From Desulfurococcales archaeon (GTDB lineage Archaea > Thermoproteota > Thermoprotei_A > Sulfolobales > Fervidicoccaceae): a DNA stretch of 64,000 bases. The stretch is from the NCBI GenBank assembly GCA_009904015.1, contig WYEQ01000002.1, positions 124,001 to 188,000 on the forward strand, in the 5' to 3' direction. Of this stretch, positions 4,360 to 59,818 are shown piece after piece. A program made the translations under genes and the position numbers. Position 1 is the first letter of the stretch; every line of letters begins with the position of its first letter. The notes under the pieces were generated by a model. It saw only the letters and a program-made list of their open reading frames with translations. It was not told where the DNA came from and did no database searches.

Positions 4360-5190
4360 ATGGTCTTGATAATAGAGGTTACAGGGAGCAGGGTAATCCC
4401 CGTCCTCGGCGCTAACGGGGAGAAGGTGGGCGAGGCCGTCCTGCCACCCGTGTTCCACACACCGGTTAGGAAGGACCTGATAAGAAGAGCCTTCCTTGCT
4501 GAGTTCACGGCGCGCCTACAGCCAAAGGGAAGAGACCCCATGGCTGGTAAACGAACAACAGCTGAGAGCCTCGGAGCTGACCACGGGCTGGCGAGGGTGC
4601 CCAGAGTGAAGGGCACGACGAGGGCAAGGCTGGTAAACATGGCTGTTGGAGGAAGGCTCGCGCACCCACCGAGAGTAGAGAAGAAAATAGTGGAGGAGAT
4701 AAACAAAAAGGAGAAGTTACTGGCAACGGCGAGTGCCATTGCCGCTACGGCTAGCCTTGACCTCGTCAGGAAGAGAGGACACCTGTTCAGGGCCGAGGCC
4801 CTGCCAGTAGTAATTGACTCAAGTCTCCTCAACACGATAAGCAAAACCAAGGACGCGAGAAAACTGCTCGAGGCGCTCGGCCTAATAGAAGACGTGGAGA
4901 GAGCCGAAAGAAGCATCGGAATAAGAGCTGGCAAGGGGAAAATGAGAGGCAGAAGATACGTTGAAGCGAAAAGCGTGTTGTTCGTCCTGGACAATCACAG
5001 GTCACCACTAGCGCTAGCGCTAAGAGGACTGCCAGGCGTTGATGTAGTGACTCCGAGGACTGTGAGCGTCTTGGACCTGGCCCCGGGCGGTGTGCCGGGC
5101 AGATTAACGGTATACACAAACACCTCGCTGGCAGCCATCCAGGAGAGATTTAATGGAAAACTATTCTTCATTGAAACAGGAGGAGAGTAG
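4360..5190 (+). CDS. rpl4: Ribosomal protein L4 (uL4)
   Basis: A 276-residue L4 with the archaeal extended loop (QPKGRDPMAGKRTTAES, then the HGLARVPRVKGT segment that lines the exit tunnel). ATG 4360 is chosen instead of GTG 4351 because GAGGTGAT (4348-4355) sits just before it as ribosome binding site and overlaps the L3 stop. L23 begins 3 bases after its stop, so translation is coupled within the operon. Confidence 0.96.
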   Translation: MVLIIEVTGSRVIPVLGANGEKVGEAVLPPVFHTPVRKDLIRRAFLAEFTARLQPKGRDPMAGKRTTAESLGADHGLARVPRVKGTTRARLVNMAVGGRLAHPPRVEKKIVEEINKKEKLLATASAIAATASLDLVRKRGHLFRAEALPVVIDSSLLNTISKTKDARKLLEALGLIEDVERAERSIGIRAGKGKMRGRRYVEAKSVLFVLDNHRSPLALALRGLPGVDVVTPRTVSVLDLAPGGVPGRLTVYTNTSLAAIQERFNGKLFFIETGGE

Positions 5191-5192
5191 GC

Positions 5193-5456
5193 ATGGAGGC
5201 CAAGGAAGAGGTACTCTTATATCCTCTACACACGGAGAAGGCGCTGGCGTACATAGAGAAGTACAACACGCTTGTCTTCATTGTTAGGAGAACGGCCACT
5301 AAGCTAGAGATAAAAGAAGAGTTCGAGAAGAGGTTCGGCGTCAAGGTAGATGAGGTCAGAACGCTGATCACGCCGAGAGGAGAGAAAAAGGCGTTTATTA
5401 AACTTAAGAAAGATTATAGCGCGAGCGAAATAGCAATTAAGCTAGGAATACTGTGA
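5193..5456 (+). CDS. rpl23: Ribosomal protein L23 (uL23)
   Basis: 87 residues with the family core: LYPLHTEKALAYIEKYNTLVFIV, then the VRTLITPRGEKKAFIKL strand pair. L23 binds 23S rRNA at the tunnel exit, where SRP docks. It lies between L4 and L2 in the conserved operon order, with gaps of 2 and 10 bases. Confidence 0.96.
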   Translation: MEAKEEVLLYPLHTEKALAYIEKYNTLVFIVRRTATKLEIKEEFEKRFGVKVDEVRTLITPRGEKKAFIKLKKDYSASEIAIKLGIL

Positions 5457-32115: not shown

Positions 32116-32188
32116 GGAGAGTCCGGGCTTCTAAGCCGGTAAATACGAGGATAGCCGGAGAACCCGGGTTCAAATCCCGGCGGACCCA
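32116..32188 (+). tRNA. 3' fragment of tRNA-Arg(TCT) with a 19-base BHB-like insert; 5' part missing
   Basis: In tRNA order: G18-G19 (32116-32117), half D-stem AGAG, anticodon stem CCGGG (32123-32127), loop CTTCTAA with anticodon TCT (32130-32132), insert GCCGGTAAATACGAGGATA (32135-32153), stem GCCGG, variable AGAAC, T arm CCGGG-TTCAAAT-CCCGG, acceptor CGGACCC and A73 (32188). TTCT of the loop pairs with AGGA of the insert, as in a BHB intron. The acceptor 5' strand (GGGTCCG) and the 5' D-stem are absent upstream, and 31-39 is a G-G mismatch. It is therefore a truncated tRNA: an attachment-site remnant or one piece of a split tRNA. Confidence 0.6.
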
Positions 32189-42648: not shown

Positions 42649-42656
42649 TTTATAAG
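42649..42656 (+). promoter_or_regulatory. TATA-like box upstream of the orphan tRNA 5' part
   Basis: TTTATAAG, with a second AT-rich tract CTTTTTATTTATT (42667-42679); transcription would begin a few bases before 42686. Confidence 0.4.
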
Positions 42657-42685: not shown

Positions 42686-42746
42686 GGGCCCGTGGCTCAG
42701 CCTGGTAGAGCGGCGGAGGCCTGGGGCTCACGGTGCCTCCTTTTTT
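42686..42746 (+). tRNA. Orphan tRNA 5' part with its own terminator (split-tRNA 5' half or truncated tRNA)
   Basis: Positions in tRNA order: acceptor GGGCCCG (42686-42692), TG, D-stem GCTC, D-loop AGCCTGGTA, D-stem GAGC (to 42711). Then GGC and a perfect 6-bp hairpin GGAGGC (42715-42720) / GCCTCC (42735-42740) whose loop contains CTGGGG, followed by TTTTTT (42741-42746). The T arm and the matching acceptor strand CGGGCCC are absent downstream. The TATA box, intact acceptor/D arm and T-run suggest a transcribed 5' half; the anticodon GGG (Pro) reading is possible but the arm has 3 extra bases. Not the partner of the piece at 32116 (C4 would face A). Confidence 0.6.
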
Positions 42747-59700: not shown

Positions 59701-59818
59701 GCTTCATCCCAATTACAAATCGGTCTCTACACGTTAATTACAGTGTTTATTAATGCTCAGGAACACGTGCCTTCATCAACCATCAGGTTCGTGGCAACTC
59801 ATCATTGCATAATAAATT

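Follow-up and report, generated by a model that had tools for sequence, protein, structure and literature searches.

A predicted split tRNA-Lys(CUU) gene, with its halves on two contigs, in a Desulfurococcales archaeon of the family Fervidicoccaceae

Introduction

Split tRNA genes are a rare arrangement found in few archaea; a 2014 review lists seven archaeal genomes that have them (PMC4033280). Among the described cases, tRNA-Lys(CUU) divided between positions 30 and 31 is known from Nanoarchaeum equitans and two Staphylothermus species, and N. equitans also has a tRNA-Gln(UUG) divided at 32/33 (PMC3218864). The splice-site motif of archaea is a 4-bp helix between two 3-nt bulges (PMC4090602), and a heterotetramer-type splicing endonuclease has been linked to split tRNAs (PMC3218864). 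In the papers searched, we found no link between split tRNAs and Fervidicoccus, or Thermoproteota by name. Here we analyse a 64,000-nt stretch (the window; positions 124,001 to 188,000 of contig WYEQ01000002.1) from a heat-loving Desulfurococcales archaeon of the Fervidicoccaceae, and describe in it what is very probably the 5' half of a split tRNA-Lys(CUU). The genome that holds the window (G000) is a 1.33-Mb assembly of 37 contigs, 92% complete, whose close named relatives are Desulfurococcales and Thermoproteota metagenome-assembled genomes.

Results

A reading of the window made from its letters only (the sequence-only reading) had pointed to an orphan tRNA 5' part at 42686-42746, with an acceptor strand, a D-arm, a 6-bp inverted repeat and a T-run, but no T arm after it. 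The sequence is as described. It reads GGGCCCG TG GCTC AGCCTGGTA GAGC G GCGG / AGGCCTGGGGCTCACGGTGCCTCC TTTTTT, where the solidus marks the end of the 5' exon. This exon (42686-42716, plus strand) comprises the acceptor strand GGGCCCG, the D-arm GCTC..GAGC and the anticodon stem up to position 30, and is followed by the trailer (42717-42740) and by the T-run (42741-42746), a likely transcription terminator; the inverted repeat, GGAGGC/GCCTCC, precedes the T-run. The TATA box claimed for this part is also there, as a perfect YTTWWWAR match (TTTATAAG) at 42649-42656, or -37. Such a box was found in the -50 to -32 zone of 13 out of 40 tRNAs of G000, as compared with 1.4% of random window positions. 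Promoters were scored with this fixed box, an unsupervised motif search having collapsed onto A-rich sequence. Downstream of 42746, where a GTPase open reading frame starts, there is neither a T arm nor an acceptor strand that would match, and ARAGORN and Rfam detected no complete tRNA in the window, the sole Rfam match being a C/D RNA located elsewhere in it.

The sequence-only reading had called for a 3' half that ends in CGGGCCC and whose leader would pair with GGAGGCCTGGGGCTCACGG. When G000 was searched for CGGGCCC preceded by a T arm, the matches were known tRNAs and a single orphan, at 38053-38121 of contig C11, which reads ctttataaactttctagcgcgaaccaattaa GTGGAGGCACCGGAGCGCCTAGACCGCCGAG / GCTCTTAACCCGTAGGTCCCGGGTTCAAATCCCGGCGGGCCCGCCA. 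It has a 31-nt leader (GTGGAGGCACCGGAGCGCCTAGACCGCCGAG), the anticodon CTT and a CGGGCCCG-CCA end, its last bases being TTCAAATCCCGGCGGGCCCGCCA; a TATA-like box, perfect as far as sequence goes, is present at -30/-31 of the leader, so that the boxes of both halves are at a suitable distance. Joining the 5' exon, at 42716, to the 3' exon gives a molecule of 77 nt including CCA, which forms a full cloverleaf, which ARAGORN identified as tRNA-Lys(ctt) and in which the 30/31 junction would link ...GAGCGGCGG to GCTCTTAACC. It differs from the Lys(UUU) tRNA of G000 at 6 of 77 nucleotides. The earlier reading had considered an intact tRNA of this identity at another locus as counter-evidence; none was found in the 92% complete assembly: Lys(UUU) is among the 41 tRNAs above the Rfam cut-off, and it is the only intact tRNA-Lys. 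The two halves are on different contigs, 32.8 kb and 38 kb from the nearest contig ends, and are therefore at least 70 kb apart.

The trailer of the 5' half (AGGCCTGGGGCTCACGGTGCCTCC) and the leader of the 3' half were predicted to form a duplex of -40.7 kcal/mol, which was not equalled by any of the 31,888 other 31-mers taken from the window. Folded alone, the halves reached -26.7 and -31.4 kcal/mol, as compared with -84.6 kcal/mol together. At the junction, the exon sequence CGGC (42711-42714) pairs with GCCG of the leader, between 3-nt bulges GG/A (42715-42717, with the cut after 42716) and AG/G and next to a 3-bp outer helix GAG/CUC. The 5' strand of this bulge-helix-bulge (BHB) thus spans 42711-42717, and its 4-bp helix and two 3-nt bulges fit the archaeal splice-site motif (PMC4090602). 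The unconstrained cofold minimum was a close BHB variant with smaller bulges. The split tRNA suggested by the sequence-only reading is supported by the 3' half and the complementary leader that it had called for, and also by a TATA-like box for each half and a BHB. Its idea that the hairpin is a trailer pairing with the leader of the 3' half was right for the trailer; the 6-bp hairpin itself is probably incidental, because the trailer pairs far better with that leader.

Some points weigh against a split tRNA-Lys(CUU). When the leader was mononucleotide-shuffled, keeping its base composition, 2 of 20,000 shuffled versions paired as well with the trailer, because both tails are G+C-rich. The duplex also contains two mismatches and one bulge. 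Finally, there is a residual chance that an intact Lys(CUU) gene lies in the missing part of the assembly, since the genome is fragmented and 92% complete, with the halves on two of its contigs.

Further evidence was obtained from relatives, using searches that placed the known halves of S. marinus and S. hellenicus where they had been published (1095046 for the S. hellenicus 5' half). Within the same GTDB family, both halves were found in G002, G004 and G006, and the 5' half in G007. The tails differ in sequence between these genomes (CTTGCCTAGTACCT in G002, GCCCGATACCCC in G004), but each cognate pair is complementary, indicating compensatory change, and cognate trailer/leader pairs outscored non-cognate ones; the exception was between G004 and G006, which belong to one genus. 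The two halves of G004 lie in tandem, separated by only 176 bases.

These data bear on two other explanations. The better of them, which we consider very unlikely, is that the 5' fragment is a dead and unused relic of a tRNA, produced by rearrangement or when a mobile element integrated. It is true that tRNA genes are often integration sites, that partial tRNA copies occur and that the window has an unpaired 3'-type tRNA piece at 32119-32188. A relic, however, would not keep a promoter, a 5' exon stem that still matches the 3' half perfectly and tails that co-vary in G002, G004 and G006, and G000 would then be without Lys(CUU). Still less credible is a single gene whose intron is very long, or an intron-containing gene torn apart by an assembly error. 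G001 and genomes of the family f2 do carry a short intron at the same site, but the halves of G000, at least 70 kb apart, each have their own TATA box and those of the single-contig genome G002 are 88 kb apart on opposite strands. We therefore retain the interpretation of 42686-42746 as a split tRNA-Lys(CUU) 5' half, in all likelihood completed by the 3' half on contig C11.

In the order, 37 of 214 genomes showed an interrupted 3' exon boundary, and 30 of these were examined further, the seven left out of the D-arm examination all belonging to f2. Nine of the 30 had no D-arm within 130 bases upstream, so that their genes look split: four in the window's family and five in the family f9, both Staphylothermus included. 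The remaining 21 (G001 and 20 f2 genomes) were contiguous, with short introns. The f9 genomes G109, G111 and G135 have a Lys(CUU) 3' half with a Staphylothermus-like leader and no D-arm upstream, and their genes are likely split as well. Lys(CUU) is contiguous in G001 and G003 of the window's family; an intron (AGCCCCTTCTTACAAGGGGTGCCGAG) sits exactly at 30/31 in G001, and G003 has none.

The TBP gene adjoins the 5' half in G002, G004, G006, G007 and S. hellenicus, and the contiguous gene in G001 and G003. On its other side, the 5' half of G007 neighbours a Vps4/CdvC-like ATPase gene, and such a gene also adjoins the 3' half of G000. The TBP locus thus looks ancestral for Lys(CUU). The 5' half of G000 sits away from it, flanked by Nudix hydrolase and TGS-domain (DRG/OBG-like) GTPase genes.

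A second split tRNA appears to be present in the family. Neither G000 nor G002 yielded a complete tRNA-Gln. A pattern for Gln 5' halves with a GTGTAG D-arm gave no matches, while a looser one found halves. Orphan Gln 3' halves with a TATA-like box were found in G000 (C2, directly upstream of a CAU tRNA) and G004; 5' halves with CTG and with TTG were present in each of G002, G004 and G006, and with TTG alone in G000, the Gln(CUG) 5' half not being found in this 92% complete assembly. The loci are C2:12699 (plus strand) and C2 near 16270 (minus strand) in G000; C4:17898, C3:24348 and C9:274216 in G004; C1:102144 and C1:963114 in G002; and C17:1872 and C81:5330 in G006. The G000 pair has a perfect run of 16 bp and a duplex energy of -40.2 kcal/mol, which none of 31,988 background windows matched. 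In G004, a single leader pairs with the trailers of both Gln 5' halves (-35.8 and -36.7 kcal/mol). Joined at 37/38, the halves read as tRNA-Gln. From these sequences, tRNA-Gln(UUG) and tRNA-Gln(CUG) both appear to be split at 37/38, and the UUG and CUG 5' halves of G004 appear to have one 3' half in common.

Other tRNA genes of G000 were also unusual. The initiator tRNA-Met (C37:5422, minus strand), which the Rfam search missed, apparently has three introns, one of them within the T arm. A tRNA-Pro(CGG) (C33, near 5130-5246, plus strand), apparently with two introns, was below the Rfam cut-off and turned up in the CGGGCCC search. There are two tRNA-Trp genes with long introns (C8:4715 and C1:158); a second Trp, which contains an intron, was likewise missed with the Rfam cut-off and turned up in the CGGGCCC search. 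The tRNA-Trp copy on a 5.9-kb contig differs and may originate in another strain. In the window, the piece at 32119-32188 (plus strand) lacks a 5' part; it consists of an anticodon region resembling that of Arg(UCU), a T arm and an acceptor strand (..CCCGGGTTCAAATCCCGGCGGACCCA), and lies between an Alba-like open reading frame (named by eye) and a UDG-superfamily gene. The only match to a 5' partner fell in apparently protein-coding sequence, and the piece is possibly a relic. The C/D box RNA sR5 (Rfam RF01304) is at 59756-59808 (minus strand).

Discussion

As the 30/31 split of tRNA-Lys(CUU) has already been published for N. equitans and the two Staphylothermus, the gene of G000 is of a known kind and represents a further case of this split. 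With S. marinus and S. hellenicus (Chan et al. 2011, PMC3218864) it shares the isoacceptor, the site, a BHB, complementary tails and separate promoters, and S. hellenicus has its 5' half beside TBP, as do four relatives of G000. Staphylothermus, however, belongs to another family, its tails are unrelated in sequence and its halves are 4.8 kb apart rather than at least 70 kb; the neighbours in S. hellenicus also differ from those of G000, with its Nudix and GTPase genes by the 5' half and its Vps4/CdvC-like ATPase by the 3' half. According to the tabulated data on N. equitans (Randau et al. 2005, in PMC3218864 and PMC4033280), this organism has the same Lys(CUU) split, and its tRNA-Glu has a 3' half common to two 5' halves, like the Gln case described here. 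Its Gln(UUG), in contrast, is listed as split at 32/33 rather than at 37/38, the apparent site for Gln(UUG) and Gln(CUG) here, and it is a reduced symbiont without RNase P. The intron-containing genes of G001 and f2 have the same exon boundary as G000 and the same intron end, GCCGAG/G, but they are contiguous and would be read as a single transcript, spliced in cis.

In the mechanism that we propose, the 5' half would be transcribed from its own TATA box and end at the T-run, and the 3' half would be transcribed with its 31-nt leader from its own box. Trailer and leader would anneal in trans to form the BHB at 30/31, a tRNA splicing endonuclease of the two-subunit type would cut both strands, and tRNA ligase would join the exons, yielding a tRNA-Lys(CUU) that reads AAG. 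G000 encodes two splicing-endonuclease paralogues (PF01974), of 191 and 162 aa, consistent with the predicted two-subunit type (alpha2beta2).

It is debated whether split tRNAs are an ancient form or arose from genes with introns. For the window's family, a plausible history, to which we give even weight for and against, is that the TBP-linked Lys(CUU) gene went from intronless to intron-containing at 30/31 to split; that splitting also affected the Gln pair, whose UUG and CUG 5' halves came to share one 3' half; and that a recurrent intron site hence gave rise to Lys 30/31 splitting on more than one occasion (here, in Nanoarchaeum and in Staphylothermus-like genomes). As one gene occurs in this family without an intron, with an intron and in split form, several of these versions at the same TBP locus, the order of events is directly testable. 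The findings also indicate that standard tRNA finders overlook essential tRNAs: without the halves, genomes of this family would appear to lack tRNA-Gln and tRNA-Lys(CUU).
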